From: Candidatus Acidiferrales bacterium
GTDB lineage: Bacteria > Acidobacteriota > Terriglobia > Acidiferrales > UBA7541
Direction of reading: 5' to 3'
Assembly: GCA_035934015.1 (NCBI GenBank)
Contig: DASYYH010000010.1
Span: 1 to 35,776 of the forward strand
Length of the DNA stretch: 35,776 nt
In this document: positions 2 to 35,414 of the stretch, piece by piece
Numbering within the stretch: position 1 is the stretch's first letter
How the letters are laid out: every line of letters begins with the position of its first letter
Notes under the pieces: model-generated
What the model saw: only the letters and a program-made list of their open reading frames with translations
What the model was told of the DNA's origin: nothing
Database searches by the model: none
Position numbers and translations under genes: made by a program

Positions 2-1966
2 CAGCCAATGTCGCCTCCGGCTTTGGACCGCACGGCGAAGATTTGCTTGGCAAAAGATCCGGATGAGCGCTTTCAGTCGGCGCACGACGTGAAGCTGCAG
101 CTGGAATGGATACGCGACGCGGGTTCGCAGGCAGGAGTACCCGCGCCGGTTGTTGCACACCGGAAAACGCGTGAGCGAATTGCGTGGGCGGCGGCAGCAC
201 TGTTGTTGGTCGTCGCTGGGATTTTCGCTGCAGGGTTTTTCTTGCGCATGCCTCAGCAACTCTCGTTTGAGGCCTACGTTCTCCCGCCGAACCAAAGCAA
301 CTTCACTCTAGGGGAAGACGATGCGGCGGGTCCAGTAGTCCTCTCCAAAGACGGGAAGCACATCGCATTTGTCGCGGCGGACGCTCAAGGGAAAACACAT
401 CTTTTCGTGCGCGCACTCGATGACAAGGACGCGCAGATGATCTCAGGTACGGAGGGAGCAGAATATCCGTTCTGGTCTCCTGACGGGGAATCGCTGGGTT
501 TCTTCAGCAACGGAAAGCTGCGGCGCGTCCCAGCAAATGGTGGTCCTGTTCTGGACATTTGCGACGTGGTGCGGCCTCGCGGAGGCACCTGGGGCACAGA
601 CGACACCATCCTGATTGCACCGGATATAACCGCAGGCCTTTCCCGCGTGCACGCCGGCCCGGGCTCTGTTCCAGTTGAAGTCACAAAACTTTCACCGGAG
701 CACACCACGAATCGCTGGCCAGTGCTGCTGCCCGACGGAAAGCATTTCATCTATCTTGCAATCAGCCATTCCGATCCGTACGCCAGCGCGCAGAACGGAA
801 TCTATTTTGCATCACTCGACGGCAAAGAAAATCGCTTCGTGGTGGCGGCGGAATCGAATGCGGTGTACGCACACGGCCAATTGCTCCGTGTTCAGAATGG
901 CTCTTTGCTCGCAACCGCTTTTGATCCGAGCACAGGACGGACCAGCGGAGAGACAGCCGCCTTAGCTGCGGACGTGGGCTTTAATGTTTCCACATGGCGC
1001 GCCGCTTTTGACGCCAGCGATAACGGCGTACTGGTATATCAGCCGGCCATGGGGGCGGGAAGCTCGAAATTGATTATCTTCAACCGGGATGGCAAACCGG
1101 AACAAACCATCAGTGAAACAGGGCGCGCGATAGATGTGCGGCTCTCGCCGGATGGCCATAGAGTGGCAGTCTACGAAGGAGGAGGTGCGGAAGGATTCAG
1201 CGCGTGGAATCTGGACTTGGACAAGAACACGCGCATGCGCCTTACCTTCGGATTGATTACGCAGGGGATGGCGTGGTCAGCGGATGGGCGCGCACTCTAT
1301 TACGCCTCATTCATCCCCAATTCGGCAACTGACTCCAAAGGGTCTTACCGGATCGTGCGCAAGGCTGTGGATGGCACGGGCAAGGAGGAAACACTGCTGG
1401 AGTCGGAAGACCGCATCAACTTGTCGGACGTTTCTCCAGACGGTCAGAACTTCTTGTTTGAAAAGGTATACAAAGCTCTGCCTGCCACGACGACGTGGAT
1501 TACTTCTCTGTCCCCCGGAGCCAAGGCTCGACCGCTGATCGAGGAGCCGATCGGCACCTACTGTGGCGGCTTTTCTCCGGATGGCAAATGGGTGCTCTAT
1601 GACTCGTCAGAAACCGGCCGCTACGAACTGTACGCCATGTCACTCAGCCGGGGCGGCAGGCAGCAACTGACGAGCACCGGCGCATTGTTCTGGCGATGGC
1701 GCGGCGACGGCAAGGCCATCGATTACACCAGGGATGACGGAACAGTCTTTGAACTGCCGGTCAGCGAAACCGCCAGCCAGCTCGTCGCCGGAGCGCCGCA
1801 TATGCTTTTTAAGATGGGCGCGCCGGTCACCACGTCCTTCTTCGGGCGCAGTTGGGATGCCACGAAGGACGGGCAGCACTTCATCGTCGTAACCAGTGGC
1901 GAGCAAGCAAACGGCGCGACGGCCGTGCTCGTGACCAACTGGCCAGCGCTGCTAAAGAAGCAATGA
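2..1966 (+). CDS. Ser/Thr protein kinase with C-terminal PD40 propeller, 5' truncated
   Basis: The reading frame is open from the first bases, so the gene starts upstream of the window. The first ~30 residues match the end of a Hanks-type kinase domain (subdomain XI, CLAKDPDERFQSA). A basic juxtamembrane stretch follows, then one transmembrane helix encoded at about 179-245. The remaining ~570 residues are a presumed periplasmic beta-propeller with repeated PD40/TolB-like blades; SPDG or similar motifs recur (WSPDGESLGF, LSPDGHRVAV, FSPDGKWVLY). The protein ends NWPALLKKQ, exactly as the next gene does. Such kinases phosphorylate proteins on Ser/Thr, and the propeller probably senses or binds an extracytoplasmic ligand (inference). 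The catalytic motifs lie outside the window, so activity cannot be judged. It is followed after 39 nt by a paralogous kinase on the same strand. Confidence 0.85.
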   Translation, partial: QPMSPPALDRTAKICLAKDPDERFQSAHDVKLQLEWIRDAGSQAGVPAPVVAHRKTRERIAWAAAALLLVVAGIFAAGFFLRMPQQLSFEAYVLPPNQSNFTLGEDDAAGPVVLSKDGKHIAFVAADAQGKTHLFVRALDDKDAQMISGTEGAEYPFWSPDGESLGFFSNGKLRRVPANGGPVLDICDVVRPRGGTWGTDDTILIAPDITAGLSRVHAGPGSVPVEVTKLSPEHTTNRWPVLLPDGKHFIYLAISHSDPYASAQNGIYFASLDGKENRFVVAAESNAVYAHGQLLRVQNGSLLATAFDPSTGRTSGETAALAADVGFNVSTWRAAFDASDNGVLVYQPAMGAGSSKLIIFNRDGKPEQTISETGRAIDVRLSPDGHRVAVYEGGGAEGFSAWNLDLDKNTRMRLTFGLITQGMAWSADGRALYYASFIPNSATDSKGSYRIVRKAVDGTGKEETLLESEDRINLSDVSPDGQNFLFEKVYKALPATTTWITSLSPGAKARPLIEEPIGTYCGGFSPDGKWVLYDSSETGRYELYAMSLSRGGRQQLTSTGALFWRWRGDGKAIDYTRDDGTVFELPVSETASQLVAGAPHMLFKMGAPVTTSFFGRSWDATKDGQHFIVVTSGEQANGATAVLVTNWPALLKKQ

Positions 1967-2005
1967 TGAGTAAGGAGCTAAAAAGAAACCGAGTGTGATA
2001 ATTCA

Positions 2006-4642
2006 ATGAGCATCGCGAACGGGACAAAACTCGGGCCGTATGAAATTGTCGCGCCGCTGGGCGCGGGTGGAATGGGAGAAGTGTATCGCGCGAGGGATAC
2101 GCGGCTCGGACGCGACGTGGCGATCAAGGTTTTGCCGGAAGCGTTTGCACGCGACGCGGAACGCATGGCGCGGCTGCGGCGCGAAGCGCAGGTGCTGGCG
2201 TCGCTCAATCATCCGAACATTGCGGCGATTTATGGATTCGAGGATTCCGGCGGGACGCACGCGCTGGTGATGGAATTGGTTGAAGGGCCGACACTGGCCG
2301 AGCGCATCAAAGCGGGAGCCATTCCTCTCGATGAAGCGCTGGCGATGGCCAAGCAAATCGCGGATGGATTGGAATACGCGCACGAGCGCGGAATTGTGCA
2401 TCGCGATTTGAAACCGGCAAATATAAAAATCACAAACAGCGATGCGGTGAAGATTCTGGACTTTGGATTGGCGAAGGCGCTGGAGAACGATCCTGCCGCA
2501 GTGGACATTTCGAGTTCGCCGACGATCAGCCGGATGGCGACGCAGGCGGGAATCATTCTGGGTACCGCGGCATATATGTCGCCGGAGCAAGCGAAAGGCA
2601 AGACGGTAGACCGGCGAACGGATATTTGGGCGTTTGGGTGCGTGCTATATGAAATGCTGACGGGCAAGATGGCGTTCAGCGGCGAGACGGTGACGGACAC
2701 GCTGGCGGCGGTGATTAAGAGCGAGCCGGAATGGAACGCGTTGCCTGCGACGACGCCGGCGCGGATTTGCGAACTGCTGGTGCGTTGCTTGAAGAAAGAG
2801 GCGCGGCAGCGAGTGCAATCGATCGGCGACGCCCGTATCGCCATCGAGGAAGTTCTCACCGGCGGAACTGGGCAATACGAATCGGCGGAATCGGGCGGCG
2901 TAAAACCGCCCCTACAAAATGCGCGGCGGCGCGCGCTGCCGTGGGCAACGGCGGGCGTGCTCGCGATTGGGATGATTGCGCTTGCAGTGGCATACGTGCA
3001 GAAACTGCGAACGCGCGCCCCGCATGTGATCGCGCTTAATATGCCGCTCACAGATATGGCTTCACTTCCCTTGATGGCGCTCTCACACGATGGGCGTGGC
3101 TTCGCATACTTAGCCCAGAAGAACGATCGGTGGGTGCTGGCGATTCGTTCGATGGAAACGGGTGCAGTTCATTACTACGGCGCCGCCGGGCCAGTCGCCC
3201 TTGCGTGGTCTCCAGACGACCGCTTTGTGTTCTTTGAAACGACTGGGGAATGCTTAACGTTGGATGTGATCAGCGGCGTAACCAGCGATTTCGCTCTAAA
3301 CGAGGAGCGGATCCTCGGAGCGGCATGGATGCCAAACGGACGCGGTTTGCTGGCAGGAGGCGGCCCGAGAGGCATCCTGGAGATCAATAGCTCAAACAAA
3401 GAAACGCAGACGTTAATCAAGGCTGACGACGGTTCTGACTACGTTAGTCCCATGATGGTGGATTCCGGGCATTTCTTGTTCAGCGCCAAGAAGGTTGGGG
3501 CGGACACGTTCCATGTGATGCTCAGCACGCTGGATGGAAAATCAGTCCGCGAGCTTCCGATCACCTCCCACAGACCGGCCGATTATGCAAATGGCTACGT
3601 GTTCTTCACCAACGGCGACGCTTTGATGGCACAAGCTTTGCAGACAGACGGAACTCTCGGGGAATCTGTCCAGATTGCTAATCACCTGGCCATTGAAGTC
3701 GAATGGTTGCCAGCTTTTACAGTTTCGCAAGACGGGGCCATTGTCTACGAAGACGGAACTGGGGGAGCCGAAGAGCTCCACCTGTTGGACCGAACTGGCA
3801 AAGCCTCGGAACTGCCTCTGGGCGATGGCGCGTTCAACAACCCGCGCTTCTCGCCCGATGGCAAGTTTATTGCTTATGATCAAAGCGACACCAAGGGAAA
3901 TCGAGACGTGTGGATTTACAACCTTGCGCTCCGGCAGGCCACGCGTTTTTCACTTGGCGGACAGAACAGCGATGCTATCTGGTCGCCGGACGGAAAGCAA
4001 ATCGCATACAGCATAGTGAGCAATGGTGACTTTGAGATTGTAGCGCGGCCTGCCAACGGAGCATCTGGCGAGCGTGTACTCGTTCGTAGATCGCGGTGGA
4101 TGTTTCCGCGCGATTGGTCGCCGGATGGGAAATTCCTCGTTTACGACCAGTACGCCGCGGACAACTCCTCCGTCTGGAGGATTGCCGTTGCCGCGGCCAG
4201 CACACCATCGGAATACATCCCCGGTAATGGGTTTAGCAAAGCGGCAGAGCGAATTTCACCGGATGGGAAGTGGATTGTTTACGAGTCCACGGAATCCGGC
4301 GAAACTCAAGTTTACTTGGAGTCATTTCCTGAACGCAGCGGTAAGTGGCAAGTGTCCACCGGAGGGGGAATGCAGCCGCGCTGGTCGGGCGACGGGCGGA
4401 AGGTTTATTTCCTTTCGCCAGATAACAAAATAATGGCCGCGGATATGGCATTTACGGCATCCGGGCCGCAAGTGACGAAGATCAGCGAATTGTTTTCCGT
4501 GCCGCCTTCGCTCATCGCCGGCGGGAATCCCATGGATGTGACACGTGACGGCTCGCATTTTGTGCTGAATGCTCGTCACGGGGACGCCAGCCACAGCCTA
4601 AAGGTGCTGCTAAATTGGCCGGCGCTGCTGAAGAAACAGTAA
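2006..4642 (+). CDS. Transmembrane Ser/Thr protein kinase with PD40 propeller
   Basis: This is an 878-residue receptor-like kinase. The kinase domain (about residues 12-285) is complete: Gly-rich loop GAGGMGEV at 19-26, VAIK Lys41, alpha-C Glu60, HRDLKPAN from 132, DFG at 152-154, and SPEQ in the APE position. A hydrophobic helix at about 311-331 follows. The rest is a predicted extracytoplasmic PD40 beta-propeller with repeated SPDGK motifs (FSPDGKFIAY, WSPDGKQIAY, ISPDGKWIVY). The linker just before the helix (about 297-305) contains a short palindrome-encoded segment that looks inserted. The C-terminus NWPALLKKQ matches the upstream kinase, so the pair is a tandem duplication, probably co-transcribed. 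The substrate and signal are unknown. The ATG start puts the Gly-loop at the usual distance from the N-terminus. Confidence 0.93.
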   Translation: MSIANGTKLGPYEIVAPLGAGGMGEVYRARDTRLGRDVAIKVLPEAFARDAERMARLRREAQVLASLNHPNIAAIYGFEDSGGTHALVMELVEGPTLAERIKAGAIPLDEALAMAKQIADGLEYAHERGIVHRDLKPANIKITNSDAVKILDFGLAKALENDPAAVDISSSPTISRMATQAGIILGTAAYMSPEQAKGKTVDRRTDIWAFGCVLYEMLTGKMAFSGETVTDTLAAVIKSEPEWNALPATTPARICELLVRCLKKEARQRVQSIGDARIAIEEVLTGGTGQYESAESGGVKPPLQNARRRALPWATAGVLAIGMIALAVAYVQKLRTRAPHVIALNMPLTDMASLPLMALSHDGRGFAYLAQKNDRWVLAIRSMETGAVHYYGAAGPVALAWSPDDRFVFFETTGECLTLDVISGVTSDFALNEERILGAAWMPNGRGLLAGGGPRGILEINSSNKETQTLIKADDGSDYVSPMMVDSGHFLFSAKKVGADTFHVMLSTLDGKSVRELPITSHRPADYANGYVFFTNGDALMAQALQTDGTLGESVQIANHLAIEVEWLPAFTVSQDGAIVYEDGTGGAEELHLLDRTGKASELPLGDGAFNNPRFSPDGKFIAYDQSDTKGNRDVWIYNLALRQATRFSLGGQNSDAIWSPDGKQIAYSIVSNGDFEIVARPANGASGERVLVRRSRWMFPRDWSPDGKFLVYDQYAADNSSVWRIAVAAASTPSEYIPGNGFSKAAERISPDGKWIVYESTESGETQVYLESFPERSGKWQVSTGGGMQPRWSGDGRKVYFLSPDNKIMAADMAFTASGPQVTKISELFSVPPSLIAGGNPMDVTRDGSHFVLNARHGDASHSLKVLLNWPALLKKQ
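2893..2911. repeat. Small palindrome inside the kinase linker
   Basis: GGGCGG (2893-2898) and CCGCCC (2906-2911) form a perfect 6-bp inverted repeat around a 7-nt loop. It lies in frame in the linker between the kinase domain and the transmembrane helix and encodes SGGVKPPLQ. The flanking sequence (GTAAAACC...CCTACAAAAT) resembles a mobile intergenic palindrome rather than kinase linker sequence. That reading is an inference from its form and its placement in an unstructured region. Confidence 0.45.
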
Positions 4643-25257: not shown

Positions 25258-26679
25258 TTAGGCGAGGATGGGGAATGGTTGTGACGAAACCGTCGCCGGT
25301 TCGGGATCGCCATTCGGACGCACGGGGCGAGCGAAAACTTCCACGGCTCGTCCAATCAAATCATAATCGCGCGTTTCCGTGATTTCGACGCGTGCCATCG
25401 TGCCCGGCAGAGGCAATTCGGAAGAGTCGTTTACGCCGGCGATTTCCGTGACATAAATCTTCCCGTCAATGTCCGGCGCCATGCCTTCGAGCCGCGCGGT
25501 CCAGACGAATTCGGTTTCCGCCGATGGGCCTTCGAGCATCGCGGTGAAGGTCTTCCCAATTTTCTTGCGCAATTGTCGCTGAGATATTTTCTGCTGAATG
25601 GCCATCAACTCGTCGCGGCGGCGCGCGACGGTGTCGGCGTCAATTTTTGCTTCGCAGGCGTAGCTCTTCGCGGTTTCTTCATCGGAATATGCGAAGACGC
25701 CCATCCAATCGAATTCTGCTTCGCGCACAAAGTCACACAATTCGCGAAAATCGGCTTCCGTTTCGCCGGGGAAACCAACGATGAACGAAGTGCGCAGGGA
25801 TACGCCGGGAATCGTGCGCCGAATTCGCGCGAGCGTTTTCAAAAAAGCGTCCGCATTCGAGCCGCGCTTCATGCGCGCCAGGACGCTACGGCTGGCGTGC
25901 TGCAGGGGAATGTCCATATATTTCACGAGGCGCTCGTGCGCGGCGATGGTATCGAGCAATTTCTGCGTGATGCGATTGGGGTAGCAATAAAGAAAGCGGA
26001 TCCAGTCGAGATCTTCGATTTCAGCGAGGCGTTCGAGCAGTAGCGGCAATCCATTGCGCAAACCGAGGTCTTCGCCATAGAACGTGGTGTCCTGCCCGAT
26101 CAGATTGATTTCGCGCACGCCCGCCGCTGCGAGATTTTCTGCTTCGTGAATCACAGATTCGAACCGGCGGCTGCGAAATCGCCCGCGCAGTTGCGGAATG
26201 ATGCAGAATGAGCAGGGATGATCGCAGCCTTCGTTGATTTTTACGTACGCTGTGTGGCGCGGCGTAGCCAAAATGCGCGGCGTCAAATCGTGATAAAGAA
26301 ACGTCGGCGAAGGCTCAGAATCGCGAACGATCTCGCCTTCGCACGCAGCGAAAATCTTCTCGACCTCGCCTGTGCCGATCACAGCGTCCACTTCGGGAAT
26401 CTGTTCGCGAATTTCGTTGCGATAGCGCTCGACCAGGCACCCCGCGACGATCAGCTTCTGAGCGCGGCCGAATTTCTTGTATTCGGCCATTTCCAGAATC
26501 GAATCCACGGATTCCTTGCGTGCAGGCTCGATAAAGCTGCATGTGTTTACGACGATTACATCCGCATCAGCAGCGCGCGGCGTGATTTCGTAGCCCGAAC
26601 GCGCAAGAATACCCATCATCACCTCGCTGTCGACGAGGTTCTTGGGGCATCCGAGGCTCACGAAACCGACTTTTGGCAT
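25258..26679 (-). CDS. rimO: Ribosomal protein S12 methylthiotransferase RimO
   Basis: ATG 26679 gives 473 residues beginning PKVGFVSLGCPKNLVDSE. The N-terminal MTTase domain has Cys11, Cys47 and Cys81; the radical SAM motif CDHPCSFC has Cys152, Cys156 and Cys159; a TRAM-like domain ends the protein. The LGCPKN start with NTCSFIEPARKES separates it from MiaB. It adds a methylthio group to the conserved Asp of ribosomal protein S12, whose gene is at 32269. Upstream in-frame codons would overlap dacB and show no homology. The gap to dacB is 70 nt. Confidence 0.95.
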   Translation of the reverse strand: MPKVGFVSLGCPKNLVDSEVMMGILARSGYEITPRAADADVIVVNTCSFIEPARKESVDSILEMAEYKKFGRAQKLIVAGCLVERYRNEIREQIPEVDAVIGTGEVEKIFAACEGEIVRDSEPSPTFLYHDLTPRILATPRHTAYVKINEGCDHPCSFCIIPQLRGRFRSRRFESVIHEAENLAAAGVREINLIGQDTTFYGEDLGLRNGLPLLLERLAEIEDLDWIRFLYCYPNRITQKLLDTIAAHERLVKYMDIPLQHASRSVLARMKRGSNADAFLKTLARIRRTIPGVSLRTSFIVGFPGETEADFRELCDFVREAEFDWMGVFAYSDEETAKSYACEAKIDADTVARRRDELMAIQQKISQRQLRKKIGKTFTAMLEGPSAETEFVWTARLEGMAPDIDGKIYVTEIAGVNDSSELPLPGTMARVEITETRDYDLIGRAVEVFARPVRPNGDPEPATVSSQPFPILA

Positions 26680-26749
26680 ATTGCGGCGCGTTCCCTGCGT
26701 TTGTCCGTTGCGATGAATTGCGCGGAGAGGCAATCTTAGCACAGTCGCG

Positions 26750-28354
26750 TCAGTGGGCGGATTGTGCCGGAGCCGCATACGCCGCCGCAGCGATTTCCGC
26801 GAGCGCATTTCCCACTTTTTCGACGGCTTCGAAATTCGGCGGCGCGCTGACGTTATTTACGTAGGCAGCGATGATGAGATGGCTGCCATCCGCGGCGTCG
26901 ATATATCCCGCGAATCCTTTTCCGGTAACCATGAGCGTGTGATTCAAGGCATTGTACTCCGCAAACGTGCCGGTCTTGGCATGAACGTGTCCAACGGCGG
27001 GAGAATCCGGCAACAAATTGTAGAGCGTGCCGTCGCGGCCCAAAATCGGCAGCGCGCGGTAGAAAATATCGAAATTCTTCTGGCGCGAGATAAACGCAAG
27101 GTAGTGAACCATGAAATCGGGCGTGAAGAACGCGCCTGGGCCGCCGGCGCCTTCGGCTTGTGAAGCCTGCGTCAGATCAAGTCCTGCCTTTTGCAGAAAA
27201 TCATGCTCTTCGTCGAGGCCGGCCTGTTCGGCTTCGTCGTGATTGCCGGCGAGCACGGCGCCAAGAATATAAGGCGTCAAAGTCGCGTGCAGGTTCTGGC
27301 TGACTTTCAGCGTGACTTTAATGTCTTCCGAAAGCGGCGTGGAGACGTGCTCAGCAATAAGATTTGCGGGCGTGTAGAACTTCGTGAGTGTCGCGGTTTG
27401 TTCCGGCTGCGAATTATCAATTCCGGAGTTCCCGACTGTTACACCAGCGCGCTGGAGCGCCTCGGTGAGAACGATTTCAGCGAAGCGGCTCGGCGTGGGA
27501 ACATCATACGGAAACAGCGATGGCAGTTGGCCGAGCGGCACAGTTCCTTCGAGCACGGCCGTATGCGTGCCATCAGATGCGACAGTGTCTGCGCCCCATC
27601 CGAGCTGGCGCTCAGAACCTGCTTGGCTCGTCGCGACGTGATTCACGATTTGCGCATAAGCTGTTTGTGGAGAAATTTGAAGTGTCGCCGCATCGCCGAC
27701 ATGCGCGCCGGGCGTGATGGTGATGTCGATGATGTTGTCATTCACAACGATGGGCGAAACGATTGCGCCGGAACCCGCCTCCGGTTTCCCTTCCGCGAAC
27801 ATACTGATGTCCACCAGAACTCGCCCAGCGATTTTGCGGATTCCGCGTGCGGCAATTTGCCGGGCAAAATCGTTGATGACGGCCAGCGGATCGCCGGGAA
27901 CAACTCTTGCATCGAGCATGTCGGCGGCATAGGCATGGTCGGAATTCTCAAACGCCAACGCGCCATCGGCTTGCATACGGCCGGAGAGATTCGGGTCGCC
28001 GCTGGCGACGAGAACGATATCGCCATCGAGCGTGCCCTCGGCACCGATGATGCCGGTGCGGTAAATCTTCGTATGGAAGCGATAGTCCGAACCGAGAAGC
28101 GCCAGCTCGGTACCCTCCGTCAATGTCTTCGTGGTCGAACCGGGAACGAAGAGCTTGCCGGCATTGTAGGCATAGAGCGTTCTGCCCGAATCGAGCGAAT
28201 AGATCTCGACGCCGAAAATGGCGTGCGCAAATTCAGGGCGGCTCATGATTTTCTGGATGTCGTTTGCGAGGGCGTTCGGCGTTTGTGCATGGATGGCAAA
28301 CGTCAAAAGCAGCAGAAAACAAGGAACCGCCGGCCAGCGCATCAATTTGAGCAT
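26750..28354 (-). CDS. dacB: D-alanyl-D-alanine carboxypeptidase/endopeptidase (PBP4, S13 family)
   Basis: This is a 534-residue periplasmic protein with an N-terminal signal sequence ending near AIHAQ. Penicillin-binding motifs are present: GSTTK (Ser73, Lys76), SQN (Ser352, Asn354) and KTG at 460-462. It trims stem-peptide D-Ala and cleaves cross-links in peptidoglycan. Two ATG codons are adjacent; GGAGG sits only one base before the first (28357) and four before the second, so I choose 28354. It lies 18-21 nt downstream of the DUF3857/TPR gene and is probably co-transcribed. Confidence 0.92.
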   Translation of the reverse strand: MLKLMRWPAVPCFLLLLTFAIHAQTPNALANDIQKIMSRPEFAHAIFGVEIYSLDSGRTLYAYNAGKLFVPGSTTKTLTEGTELALLGSDYRFHTKIYRTGIIGAEGTLDGDIVLVASGDPNLSGRMQADGALAFENSDHAYAADMLDARVVPGDPLAVINDFARQIAARGIRKIAGRVLVDISMFAEGKPEAGSGAIVSPIVVNDNIIDITITPGAHVGDAATLQISPQTAYAQIVNHVATSQAGSERQLGWGADTVASDGTHTAVLEGTVPLGQLPSLFPYDVPTPSRFAEIVLTEALQRAGVTVGNSGIDNSQPEQTATLTKFYTPANLIAEHVSTPLSEDIKVTLKVSQNLHATLTPYILGAVLAGNHDEAEQAGLDEEHDFLQKAGLDLTQASQAEGAGGPGAFFTPDFMVHYLAFISRQKNFDIFYRALPILGRDGTLYNLLPDSPAVGHVHAKTGTFAEYNALNHTLMVTGKGFAGYIDAADGSHLIIAAYVNNVSAPPNFEAVEKVGNALAEIAAAAYAAPAQSAH

Positions 28355-28375
28355 CATGCCTCCCGAAATTTGAAG

Positions 28376-31300
28376 CTACCGTTGCAGCAGAAGATCGTGC
28401 GGCGGATCGAAGACGAAAGAGCAGGCCTTGGTCTTCGCCGCGCAGGTCAAGACTCCCCGCAATATGACGCGAGCGTTGCTTCCGGAAGGAAAGATATCAG
28501 GGAATTGCGCTTCGTGAATACGGTCGCCGTACGGTGAGAGCGCATCATCGCCGCGAAGAAACCTGGCCGTGATTACGGAGGGTTGGGGAGCGCCGGACTG
28601 CATCAAAATCAAAAACGCGGCTTTTCCCGTCACCGCGTCAGCATTTCGCACGGAGACCGTGTGCATCGCAAGAAGTTCGCCGCCTGCGCGCTTAACGCGT
28701 TGGTCGATCCCTATATTGCTGCCGAGCAAGCGGATCAAGCGAGCGCGCGTACCCGGTGGTGCTCCACCGGCGGCAAGGGCAAGGACGTAGGTCTGAATCG
28801 CGCGGTCCTTTTCTCCCTGCTTTTCGTAAATCTGCGCGAGATGGTCGCCGACATCGCCACGCTCGTCGAGAACCCATGCTGCGTGAATCAAAGCCAGACC
28901 GTCCTGCAACTTGCCTTGCTGAAAACGCACCCACCCCAGCGTGTCCCAGACGGCTGGAAGCGCCGCGGCGTCGCCAAAGATTTCCCCGGTAAGGTGTCCG
29001 AGATCTGCGGTAGCCATTTGCGACTCAACGGCCTTCACGGCAGACAATGCAAATGTCGCGGCCTGTTCAAGAGCAACGCTGTGTGTGGCGAGTTGATACG
29101 CAGCTTCGTTGGCGATCAGCGGCGAAGAGGAGAGCGACATCGCTTTCGTGAATGCGCCCAGCGCTTCCGTATTCTTGTTTTCGCCGAGATAGGCCGCGCC
29201 GAGACGCAGCCGGACCGCGGCGCTGCTGGGAGCCAGCACGGCCGCCTTTTCGAGTTCCGATACGGCCTCCGGAAACTTCTTCTGGTCGACGTAGACGGTT
29301 CCCAGGTATTCGTATGCGTTGGGATCCAAAGGCTTTATGGCGATTTCCTTCTTGAAGGCGACGACAGCCTCGTCGTACTTTTTCAAGTTGTAAAGGGCAA
29401 TGCCCAGCAAAGTATTCGCCGATTCGTCGGCAGGATTCGCTTGCAAGTGCTTTTGCAGAGACGTTGCCGCATCTTCGTATTTTCCCGTTTGAAGCTGAGC
29501 GACTCCGATATCGAGCCAGAGGTCTTTTTGGTTTGGCGCCAGTTGCGCCACTTGCTCGAATAGCAGTAGTGCATTCGCATAACTTCCAGACTTTAGTTCC
29601 GCATTGCCGGCTTCCATCAACTGGCTCGTTGTGGCGTCGGCGGGCACTCCTGGAATGATGTTCGCAACCTGGAGCGGCTGGCTTTCATCCTGCTCGATCG
29701 CGTGCGTAAATGCGAGATAGTCAGAGCGGCGAGCAGCGGGAATTTCATGCGCGAGAAAGCGAAGCGTCCGCTGCGCGGTCAGCGAATGTTCTTGCGCGTC
29801 ATAATGAGATTGGTAGTCTGCATAGTCGCGCGTGATCGCCGCGCCCACGGGCATCTGGCAAGAAATATTCGCCGGGAATGACAAAGTGAGCTTCGTAGTG
29901 ACGTCCAAAGGACTTCCAAGCGGAAGGGATTTGGCCGGGTCCTGCGGCGCGTCCGGCAGGCCGAACGTCGGCAGCGGAAGCGCAATCGCAGCCTTCGCCT
30001 GCGACCAATCGAGGAAGTTCTCGTTGACGATGGTGAACGACACAGTAAATGGGTCCTTTGTTGCCGTGGGGTCCATCGCGTTGACGTCGATCACCTGCCC
30101 GTGAAAGCCATCGAGCTCGGCCATGGTTTGCGCGATGCTTTTCCAATGGTCTTGCGGTGTGCCATGGAACGCGACTCGCAGCGCGAATTCGTTGTCGCCG
30201 CGCATCGTATAGCGAACCACCGCGCTGAGTTTGCCAAGCGAACTGACGCGGCCATTGACTTCGACCTGCTGGGTCGAAGGGAATGGCGGGTCCACGGGCG
30301 TTTTGTCGAAGGTTGCCGGCGCAGCGGTAGAAATAACGAGAACTTCTTTGTTTCGATCCGCCGGCGGCAGCATGCGAAATGGGAGAACATCAGAGGAGGG
30401 ATCGAGCCAGTACACATCTTTCGCCGCAGTGACCTTGAGGATAGCGTGATCGAATGCGCTCGGGGTCGGCAGGTTTTTATCAAAATTTCCTGCAGAGGGC
30501 AGCAGAATCAGATCGGATTGAAAACCGGTTGATGTGAGCAGGGAGGCGAGCAGCGCGCACAGATCAATATCGTCGCCAACGCCCGCGCTCAAAACGTTGC
30601 TTGCGCCGCGCGGCTGAAAGTTGGCCTGCCGCATAGGCATGCGGACATACGTGACTTGTTTCGCGGCGAAGTCGTATAAGGCCTCGATCTTGCCAGAATG
30701 AGTTTCTTGATTTGCGACGAGTGCAGCGGCCTTATCGCGGATTTCCTGTCCGGGCCTCTCTGCGGCGCTTTCGAGTGCCCCCATCCATTTTCCGAGTGCC
30801 TGCCAATCTGCGAAACTGCTCAGCTCGACATCGGGAGTTTTATTCTTCGCCGCCGCGCTGTCGCTTGAGGAATTCGGAACCGGAGTCGCCGCGGCGCTTG
30901 TTCGTTTCCAAAAATAAATTTTGCGCGCGCCCTGGGTCGTGACGGCTGGCACAAATTGCGGAGCATACTTGATGTGAATCGCGCGATCAGCCGGCACGCT
31001 GACCTGCAGCTCTTCGTCGTTCGCCGAGATGTCCGATAGAAAACTATGCTCGTACCAGAATTCGCCGGGAGCAGGAGGCGTGACTGTTTTCAAGATCACT
31101 TCGTAACTGAGCGCGTCTCCGGGCGCAAGCGTGGGGATGTGAAGTTGCGCTTCGCGAATGTCGGTGATGGCCGGGGCGGTTTTCACAACCGGCGCGGGTT
31201 GGTCGCTCACGATGTCGGGCTTCGCTTCCGTGCTTGTTCCGTCAGATTTCGTGATGCGCAGAAAAGCGAGCGCGAAGGTTTCGTTCGAAGCGTCGTAATC

Positions 31301-31573
31301 GAATGCCAGCGTGTGCAGCGATTGATTTGCTTCCGCACTTTGGACTTTGAGCCGCAGATCGATCTGGCGCTCGCTCGTCCCGTCATTTTGGAAACTGATT
31401 TTGTTGGAGAAAAGTTCGATGACGAACGGAGCCGACGGGTTTGCGGCCGCAGCTACGGCATTTGACTTCGCCGCGGAGGCCGATTGGGCGCGCGCCATGG
31501 AAGACGAAAAAATCGAAAAAGCGAGCAGTGCAACAAGTGCCCAAAACATCGAGTAAATATAGTGCGGTTTCAT
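28376..31573 (-). CDS. DUF3857/transglutaminase-like/TPR envelope protein with altered catalytic site
   Basis: ATG 31573 gives 1065 residues with an N-terminal hydrophobic signal sequence (FWALVALLAFSIFSSSMARAQ). A DUF3857-like beta domain (about 40-260) precedes a transglutaminase-like core (about 290-400) and a further beta-rich domain. At least five TPRs follow (about 640-830). In the core, His376 and Asp391 of the triad are kept (FDHAILKV, YWLDPSS), but the family's GDCKD box reads GDDID, so the catalytic Cys is Asp335; Cys339 lies four residues on. It is probably non-catalytic, perhaps a scaffold for peptidoglycan or protein assemblies (inference). It is the first gene of a unit with dacB. 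Confidence 0.82.
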   Translation of the reverse strand: MKPHYIYSMFWALVALLAFSIFSSSMARAQSASAAKSNAVAAAANPSAPFVIELFSNKISFQNDGTSERQIDLRLKVQSAEANQSLHTLAFDYDASNETFALAFLRITKSDGTSTEAKPDIVSDQPAPVVKTAPAITDIREAQLHIPTLAPGDALSYEVILKTVTPPAPGEFWYEHSFLSDISANDEELQVSVPADRAIHIKYAPQFVPAVTTQGARKIYFWKRTSAAATPVPNSSSDSAAAKNKTPDVELSSFADWQALGKWMGALESAAERPGQEIRDKAAALVANQETHSGKIEALYDFAAKQVTYVRMPMRQANFQPRGASNVLSAGVGDDIDLCALLASLLTSTGFQSDLILLPSAGNFDKNLPTPSAFDHAILKVTAAKDVYWLDPSSDVLPFRMLPPADRNKEVLVISTAAPATFDKTPVDPPFPSTQQVEVNGRVSSLGKLSAVVRYTMRGDNEFALRVAFHGTPQDHWKSIAQTMAELDGFHGQVIDVNAMDPTATKDPFTVSFTIVNENFLDWSQAKAAIALPLPTFGLPDAPQDPAKSLPLGSPLDVTTKLTLSFPANISCQMPVGAAITRDYADYQSHYDAQEHSLTAQRTLRFLAHEIPAARRSDYLAFTHAIEQDESQPLQVANIIPGVPADATTSQLMEAGNAELKSGSYANALLLFEQVAQLAPNQKDLWLDIGVAQLQTGKYEDAATSLQKHLQANPADESANTLLGIALYNLKKYDEAVVAFKKEIAIKPLDPNAYEYLGTVYVDQKKFPEAVSELEKAAVLAPSSAAVRLRLGAAYLGENKNTEALGAFTKAMSLSSSPLIANEAAYQLATHSVALEQAATFALSAVKAVESQMATADLGHLTGEIFGDAAALPAVWDTLGWVRFQQGKLQDGLALIHAAWVLDERGDVGDHLAQIYEKQGEKDRAIQTYVLALAAGGAPPGTRARLIRLLGSNIGIDQRVKRAGGELLAMHTVSVRNADAVTGKAAFLILMQSGAPQPSVITARFLRGDDALSPYGDRIHEAQFPDIFPSGSNARVILRGVLTCAAKTKACSFVFDPPHDLLLQR

Positions 31574-31957: not shown

Positions 31958-32151
31958 CGCCGGTTTGTAGGTGGACTTGTTGCTGGAATTGTGCTGAAAG
32001 GGTTTCTTCCCGCCCCGGAACAGAGAAGGAAGGAACGGGGTTTGGGAGGACGGCCGAAATGGGGCGCCTGCCCCGCAAAGCCGTTTGAAGCTCTCCGCTG
32101 TAGAAGTGGATGTGTTCCGGATGTTGTGAGCACGCCCGCGCGGAGTACCTT

Positions 32152-32178
32152 GCCGGTTCCTTCGGGGTCTTGACCGGC
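32152..32178 (+). promoter_or_regulatory. UUCG-capped hairpin, possible attenuator
   Basis: GCCGGT (32152-32157) pairs with ACCGGC (73-78 of the same hundred, i.e. 32173-32178). An inner TCC-TTCG-GGG forms a UUCG tetraloop; five unpaired bases sit on the 3' side. CCTTTCTGTTCT follows, which is T-rich but interrupted. It could act as an attenuator or as a folding nucleus in the leader. Confidence 0.35.
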
Positions 32179-32235
32179 CCTTTCTGTTCTACACCTGTCT
32201 GCATCTGCCTGGGCTTTGTACGCCCTGCGGAAAAA

Positions 32236-32257
32236 CGAAATCGGGTTACCCGTTTCG
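32236..32257 (+). promoter_or_regulatory. Hairpin abutting the rpsL Shine-Dalgarno
   Basis: CGAAA (32236-32240) pairs with TTTCG (32253-32257) and CGGG (32242-32245) with CCCG (32249-32252), with a single bulged T and a TTA loop. Its 3' end touches the GGAGG of rpsL (32257-32261), so the fold could tune ribosome access. A role in S12/S7 feedback control is speculative. Confidence 0.4.
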
Positions 32258-32268
32258 GAGGGAGAAGC

Positions 32269-32652
32269 GTGCCGACGTTTGCACAACTGGTTCGATATGG
32301 CCGCGAGAAATTGCGGACGAAAACGAAATCGCCAGCGCTCGAAGGCTGCCCGGAAAAGCGCGGAGTTTGCGTGAGGGTCTATACGCAGACGCCGAAGAAG
32401 CCAAATTCGGCGCTGCGCAAGGTGGCCCGCGCGCGGCTCACGAATTCGGCCGAAGTGACCACATACATTCCCGGCATCGGCCACAATTTGCAGGAGCACT
32501 CGATCGTGCTGGTTCGCGGCGGCCGCGTGAAAGATTTGCCTGGCGTTCGTTATCACGTGATTCGCGGAACGCTGGATGCCGCCGGTGTTGAAAATCGCAA
32601 GCAGGGGCGCTCGAAATACGGCGCCAAGCGGCCCAAAGCCGCTCAGAAGTAG
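32269..32652 (+). CDS. rpsL: 30S ribosomal protein S12
   Basis: This is a 127-residue protein with GTG start (GGAGG seven bases upstream), [13 protein letters not shown] at the N-terminus and the universal core [47 protein letters not shown]12 lies in the decoding centre of the 30S subunit. Lysines in PKKPNS and RVKDLPG are the wild-type residues associated with streptomycin sensitivity. The Asp in KDLPG is the site RimO modifies. An in-frame open stretch upstream to 32110 is not part of the gene. It is the first gene of the str operon. Confidence 0.98.
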
Positions 32653-32664
32653 GGGAGCAGCGGA

Positions 32665-33135
32665 ATGCCACGCAAAGGATTTGTCATTCGCCGGAAGATC
32701 CCCGGCGACGCGGTCTACGGAAGCGATCTGGTGCAGAAGTTCGTTTCCAGCATGATGTACGACGGCAAGCGCGCCACGGCGCAGGCGATTTTCTATAAGG
32801 CGATGGAGAACGTGGCGCAAAAGACGAACTCCGATGCCCTGACGGTTTTCAAGAAAGCCATCGAGAACGTCAAGCCGCTGCTGGAAGTGAAAACGCGGCG
32901 CGTTGGCGGCGCGAACTATCAGGTTCCCGTAGAGGTAAATCAGTTCCGGCGGCAATCGCTGGCGATTCACTGGCTGATTCTTTATGCGCGGGAACGTTCG
33001 GGAAAAAACATGACTGACAAATTGGCTGAGGAAATCATGGACGCAGCCAATAGCAAGGGCGGAGCAGTGAAGAAGAAGGAGGATGTGCACCGCATGGCCG
33101 AGGCCAACAAGGCCTTTGCCCACTATCGCTGGTAA
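32665..33135 (+). CDS. rpsG: 30S ribosomal protein S7
   Basis: This is a 156-residue protein of standard length starting [21 protein letters not shown], with [11 protein letters not shown] and [11 protein letters not shown] in the core and [15 protein letters not shown] at the end. S7 nucleates the 30S head by binding the 3' domain of 16S rRNA and contacts E-site tRNA. The gap from rpsL is only 12 nt and contains GGGGAG as ribosome binding site. There is no room for the long S12-S7 intergenic control structure known from E. coli. Confidence 0.98.
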
Positions 33136-33149
33136 GCGGCGAAATTTTC

Positions 33150-35410
<2,261 letters not shown>

Positions 35411-35414
<4 letters not shown>

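Follow-up and report, generated by a model that had tools for sequence, protein, structure and literature searches.

The window (the whole stretch of 35,776 nucleotides that was analysed) encodes on its reverse strand a DUF3857 – transglutaminase-like – TPR protein, P0001, of 1065 aa (28376..31573; numbered from the ATG at 31573 on that strand, and recognised from its open frame, Pfam domains and dN/dS), which has lost the nucleophile of its transglutaminase-like domain while selection keeps the domain. Its status as a pseudoenzyme is supported by sequence, because the nucleophile is absent in all five aligned congeners, the replacing residue varies by clade, the triad histidine changes and selection persists. 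We consider it likely that the gene product is a secreted pseudo-transglutaminase, which would serve as a binding or scaffold module. Sequence comparison shows that the cysteine disappeared in the ancestor of the genus or earlier, with several further losses among the orthologues.

P0001 exceeds the curated profile cut-off for DUF3857 at residues 63–229 (30887..31387, minus strand; PF12969, E 3.3e-25, 89.5 bits against a cut-off of 24.6). The transglutaminase-like domain without catalytic cysteine occupies residues ~255–420 (30314..30811, minus strand), with limits set by hand, and is recognised by PF01841 and by the fold match to 3kd4_A; the Pfam Transglut_core match is weak, spanning residues 281–353 and scoring 18.9 bits in the protein scan and 23.2 bits in the six-frame genome scan against a cut-off of 23. 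TPR repeats follow at residues ~641–865 (28979..29653, minus strand; TPR_2 E 2.7e-23 over five stretches, with TPR-protein models matching between 645 and 865). The protein is probably secreted, judging by eye from a signal-peptide-like N-terminus ending in ARAQS. In the window the gene is divergent from rpsL, rpsG and fusA (32110..35414, plus strand; named from translations), a layout that recurs in other genera, where these neighbours mark the locus. Downstream of it lie rimO (named by hand) and a PBP4-type dacB (25258–28357), whose listed open frames overlap. At the other end of the window (8–4642) are two adjacent genes whose translations resemble, by eye, serine/threonine-kinase plus beta-propeller-repeat proteins.

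The transglutaminase core was modelled with moderate confidence (pLDDT 60, pTM 0.59), and a model of residues 41–640 from a 3-row alignment was discarded (pLDDT 40). In the core model residue 335 lies near the start of a helix (332–348) with residue 339 one turn on in the same helix, His376 lies in a strand (374–383) and Asp391 comes right after the next strand. Among solved structures the closest is 3kd4_A (Z 10.4, rmsd 3.5, 143 aligned); factor XIII and TG3 (both at Z 8.0), XPC, PNGase and protein 4.2 come next, at Z 7.7–8.0. Foldseek likewise puts 3kd4_A at the top (E 2.3e-03, prob 1.00) and gave no match with E <0.001 for this model. A Z of about 8 would be weak by itself; 3kd4_A scores clear of the other matches and is consistent with the sequence match, and the transglutaminase fold appears to be retained in P0001.

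An earlier note on this DNA had placed an aspartate at the nucleophile position, and this was borne out by an alignment of P0001 with 69 homologues, in which the nucleophile column is occupied by Asp335 (GAT, 30569–30571) within the box G333-D334-D335-I336-D337-L338-C339 (GVGDDIDLC from residue 331) and none of the other cysteines of P0001 falls in that column. His376 (CAC, 30446–30448) and Asp391 (GAT, 30401–30403) of the triad are retained in the same alignment, and Cys339 (TGC, 30557–30559) lies four residues downstream of Asp335, both as described in that note (all four codons are on the minus strand and were read by eye from the sequence). Measured against an active transglutaminase-like enzyme, P0001 therefore has the histidine and aspartate of the triad and lacks the catalytic cysteine. 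The nearest relative, G045, which is 79% identical over the compared part and comes from a separate assembly, shares Asp335, Cys339, His376 and Asp391 with P0001 (row L073). The cysteine-less state is therefore not a sequencing error, in keeping with the note's own expectation, and this agreement at four positions together with dN/dS rules out both sequencing error and a pseudogene.

All of the 95 genomes of the order that were searched with the protein contain a match, which in some is only weak or to the TPR part. Loci for the alignment came from this search plus 40 fetched stretches and do not represent every match; before counting we dropped rows L005 and L006 (copies of the window), L002 (the same as L057), L036 (the same as L007), L008 (a C-terminal fragment of G045) and L038 (distant). 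The aligned orthologues number 53, the window included, of which 12 have the cysteine and 41 have D, E, A, S, G, P or Q in its place; the replacing residues, as aligned, are not of any one specific chemistry. The intact GDCKD orthologues that the earlier note had named as counting against its reading thus exist (the same 12 of 53), in other genera, where the nucleophile column is Cys in some members and A, S, G, D, P, Q or E elsewhere, but they do not undo the observation and instead show that the loss is derived. Among the five aligned congeners residue 335 is D, D, E, E and E, Cys339 is present in all, and His376 is replaced by R in G043 and by Q in G046.

By hand count, and again with the window included, rpsL lies within the stretch read for 10 of the 12 cysteine-bearing and 27 of the 41 cysteine-less aligned orthologues, and the remaining 16 orthologues were assigned by tree. 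The latter include two of the loss lineages described below, L021 (G079), whose fetched stretch contains no rpsL, and L035 (G058), which lies on a short contig without rpsL. For G035 and G032 the orthologues served for synteny alone and are absent from the tree. Two rows of genus g3, L055 and L056, were grouped as paralogues and possibly represent the rpsL-linked gene, since L055 is ~5 kb away from rpsL (in L122); both keep the cysteine and their grouping therefore does not affect the count of losses. In genus g2 the protein-search matches stop near residue 630–654, and the TPR part therefore seems to be absent from the g2 protein. One or two extra genes of ~500 residues can sit between the target and rpsL in g2 loci (L130, L141, L150). 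No conserved functional neighbour of the target emerged from the open frames of 11 loci, and a functional link to dacB is not supported, since dacB adjoins the target in the window and in G045 and no dacB was detected next to it in G043, G044 or G046. In G068, a relative outside the alignment, two or more open frames together make up the copy. Among the 43 matching records of a plasmid search none covers 80% and there is no full-length relative, and in a separate set of 19 loci the sole full-length relative is L036 (the G043 gene), L038 matching the transglutaminase part and the rest mostly the TPR part.

We estimated the number of losses on a careful tree of 69 rows and 571 columns, from which the nucleophile and histidine columns had been removed and L004 left out for its long branch. 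The Cys/non-Cys label changes six times on this tree (six to six over the 5–95% bootstrap range), and at least five changes are forced by well supported branches. Since all 16 rows grouped as paralogues keep Cys-His-Asp, six losses with no regain is the economical reading. One loss covers the window genus together with g2 (weakly joined), another a clade of ten, and L035, L020, L021 and L034 account for one each; on a quick tree the window genus is a separate loss and L035 joins g2, the total again being six.

The genome that carries the window has four DUF3857 genes. Besides the target these are a paralogue, G000:C11:452402-455617 (L057), which aligns to P0001 over nearly its whole length (residues 16–1057, 34% identical) and differs from it in having GDCKD, His and Asp intact, and an adjacent pair on contig C16 (L240:2717-6674, G000:C16), in both members of which Pfam finds both domains; one member is intact and the other has Ala/Thr at the Cys/His positions. 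The arrangement of the C16 pair proved common. We hand-picked 40 regions across the phylum (L201–L239 and L240), mostly neighbouring DUF3857 hits among the matches listed, with some neighbours not taken. At least two members are present in 38 of the 40, and among these 38 exactly one member has both Cys and His in 34, none in three and two in one; by cysteine alone, exactly one is intact in 33 of 38. Histidine is present in 36 of the 37 members with the cysteine and in one of the 46 without it. One member's box had been seen beforehand in several regions, and seven regions in which more had been seen were excluded from a test of the remaining 28 two-member regions, of which 25 have exactly one cysteine gene (P ~1.3e-5 assuming independence, which relatives violate). 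Regions that run against the pattern are L214, L234 and the three-member L230, which have no intact member, and L208, with two intact and one dead; in L211 and L238 one member was found, and in L216 the second member has Cys but lacks His. Twelve further regions (L247–L258), picked as neighbouring hits, came from the order of the Flavobacterium genome that contains L038; Flavobacterium belongs to another phylum, Bacteroidota. Exactly one member is intact in all 12, with histidine in 12 of 12 members that have Cys and in one of 16 that lack it; L256 has a further long open frame unmatched by the profile. A quick tree of the pair members, with long branches and used descriptively alone, appears to have similar intact/dead branching in several clades, which suggests old, co-inherited pairs.

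The pairing pattern was observed directly in the regions read, and as a by-product of this work it strikes us as more surprising than the pseudoenzyme of the window. We see about an even chance that DUF3857 transglutaminases, in two phyla, are built on the pairing of an enzyme with a pseudoenzyme, probably as heteromers in which the dead copy would bind or present the substrate, and that the rpsL-linked gene took another route, with the dead domain fused to TPRs and the cysteine lost repeatedly. The dead copies of pairs usually lack both Cys and His, whereas most rpsL-linked orthologues without the cysteine keep the histidine (34 of 41), which points to two kinds of pseudoenzyme in one family.

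It could be asked whether the cysteine-less protein also works with a partner, regulating in a prozyme-like way an intact DUF3857-transglutaminase paralogue of the cell as its obligate subunit. Such an arrangement would accord with the frequency of neighbouring enzymes and pseudoenzymes among other DUF3857 members, and at least one intact GDCKDK box occurs elsewhere in 34 of the 41 genomes with a cysteine-less orthologue (hand count). However, the target has no neighbouring DUF3857-transglutaminase gene of the opposite state and is not in tandem with a paralogue, its neighbours being rpsL and dacB. Seven of the 41 genomes, all of them drafts that are 86–97% complete, have no GDCKDK box under a strict pattern; six of them yielded a single DUF3857 gene, the cysteine-less one, and G041 yielded two, neither with the cysteine. 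An obligate intact DUF3857 partner is unsupported in these seven draft genomes, and we therefore regard this explanation as unlikely.

After the loss of its cysteine the transglutaminase domain of P0001 is under purifying selection (dN/dS ~0.13). Over three stretches of residues 49–632, dN/dS between the window and G045 is 0.09 (DUF3857), 0.13 (transglutaminase) and 0.10 (the next stretch); the gene has therefore not decayed. Values for the transglutaminase region are 0.07–0.20 in eight cysteine-less pairs, 0.04–0.23 in six cysteine-bearing pairs and 0.26 in one mixed pair, by a simple method (Nei-Gojobori with Jukes-Cantor) and with high dS (0.4–2.7) in the pairs. Residue 335 itself falls at the 25th–36th percentile of conservation in each of three cysteine-less groups. 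His376 is lost in 7 of 41 cysteine-less rows against 0 of 29 cysteine-bearing rows (Fisher p 0.036, relatedness ignored), and Asp391 is kept in all 41 cysteine-less rows. This pattern of constraint fits a domain in which catalysis has been lost and the fold retained, and the joint retention of His and Asp in 34 of the 41 cysteine-less orthologues could reflect residual or different chemistry.

These data also bear on neutral decay, in which catalysis would have become dispensable and the domain be on its way out, as the six changes on the tree and the varying replacement residue might suggest. Against this, dN/dS of the cysteine-less members lies in the same low range as that of their cysteine-bearing relatives, and none of the aligned orthologues is listed with an internal stop. 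All 22 aligned members of genus g2 are cysteine-less and deeply diverged, and they still share invariant residues (Y300, K338, L341, P371, D391 and V396–P398). Decay of this kind seems to us very improbable.

The earlier note had offered a shifted nucleophile as the alternative to a pseudoenzyme, and of these two the evidence supports the latter. We give hardly any credence to replacement of the catalytic cysteine at 335 by Cys339, one helical turn on and working with His376 and Asp391, and reject it on conservation: Cys339 is invariant in the five congeners and is the sole cysteine of the DUF3857-transglutaminase part common to all five, but 43 of 166 transglutaminase-region columns are invariant in the genus, so this is unremarkable; it stays where His376 has become Arg (G043) or Gln (G046); outside the genus it is found in just 4 of 36 cysteine-less orthologues (L086, L088, L092 and L093), the others having F, H, Q, A, Y, M or V; and in 11 of 12 cysteine-bearing orthologues residue 339 is His.

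Under the favoured reading of a secreted pseudo-transglutaminase, P0001 would form no cysteine acyl-enzyme and hence would not use one to cross-link or cleave proteins. A ligand, either peptide or protein, may instead bind to DUF3857 and the transglutaminase cleft, with the TPRs recruiting partners, making P0001 a non-catalytic scaffold or regulator. Within the genus, the acidic residue at 335 (D or E) may pair with residue 376 (H, H, R and H, with Q in one member), and from the alignment this pair may stand in structurally for the thiolate-imidazolium pair.

In the open-licence literature, judged by titles and the starts of abstracts, we found no paper on inactive DUF3857 proteins or on intact/dead pairs, and none in which 'DUF3857' occurs together with 'transglutaminase'; the term 'DUF3857' itself turned up in a single paper, PMC6341742, where a passage uses it for a gene adjoining lolA. 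One intact gene with one or more dead neighbours offers a concrete hypothesis for an uncharacterised family.

Several known proteins resemble P0001 in part. Rad4/XPC is a catalytically inactive transglutaminase-fold protein; it and EPB42 (erythrocyte protein 4.2) share with P0001 an inactive transglutaminase fold and are both among its fold matches, but they are eukaryotic, are 7–12% identical to it over the structural match and are not known to contain DUF3857. EPB42 is given, with FBX21, as an inactive transglutaminase-fold protein in passages of PMC10318531, which also mention DUF1175, a bacterial family that is inactive and belongs to the papain-like group in the wider sense. The transglutaminase-like domain of fungal Cyk3, as described in passages of PMC4758748, is without the catalytic cysteine, keeps the His and Asp, mutation of which gives phenotypes, and is important for stimulating the chitin synthase Chs2. 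Cyk3 is a eukaryotic cytokinesis protein with an SH3 domain, and its likeness to P0001 lies in the absent cysteine; the conservation of His and Asp described for it is seen in P0001 itself, but the histidine is R or Q in two of the five congeners and so the pattern does not extend to the genus. Another is PDB 3kd4 (BDI_1141 of Parabacteroides distasonis), which is named once as a superfamily match in PMC4866520; no other DUF3857-type relative turned up when solved chains were searched by sequence. It aligns with P0001 over DUF3857 and the transglutaminase domain, matches it in fold and likewise appears to have no nucleophilic cysteine, the aligned position being Pro in a weak phmmer match (E 0.0052); unlike P0001 it is 506 residues long, too short for the TPR part, is 17–18% identical and is titled 'putative protease'. 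That the one solved relative found also appears to be without the nucleophile counsels caution in naming DUF3857 proteins transglutaminases or proteases on domain hits alone. The inactive transglutaminase domains of known role met in these literature passages are eukaryotic, and the bacterial rpsL-linked orthologue, in which the nucleophile was lost about six times against 16 aligned paralogues that keep it, provides a natural series on a non-catalytic role.
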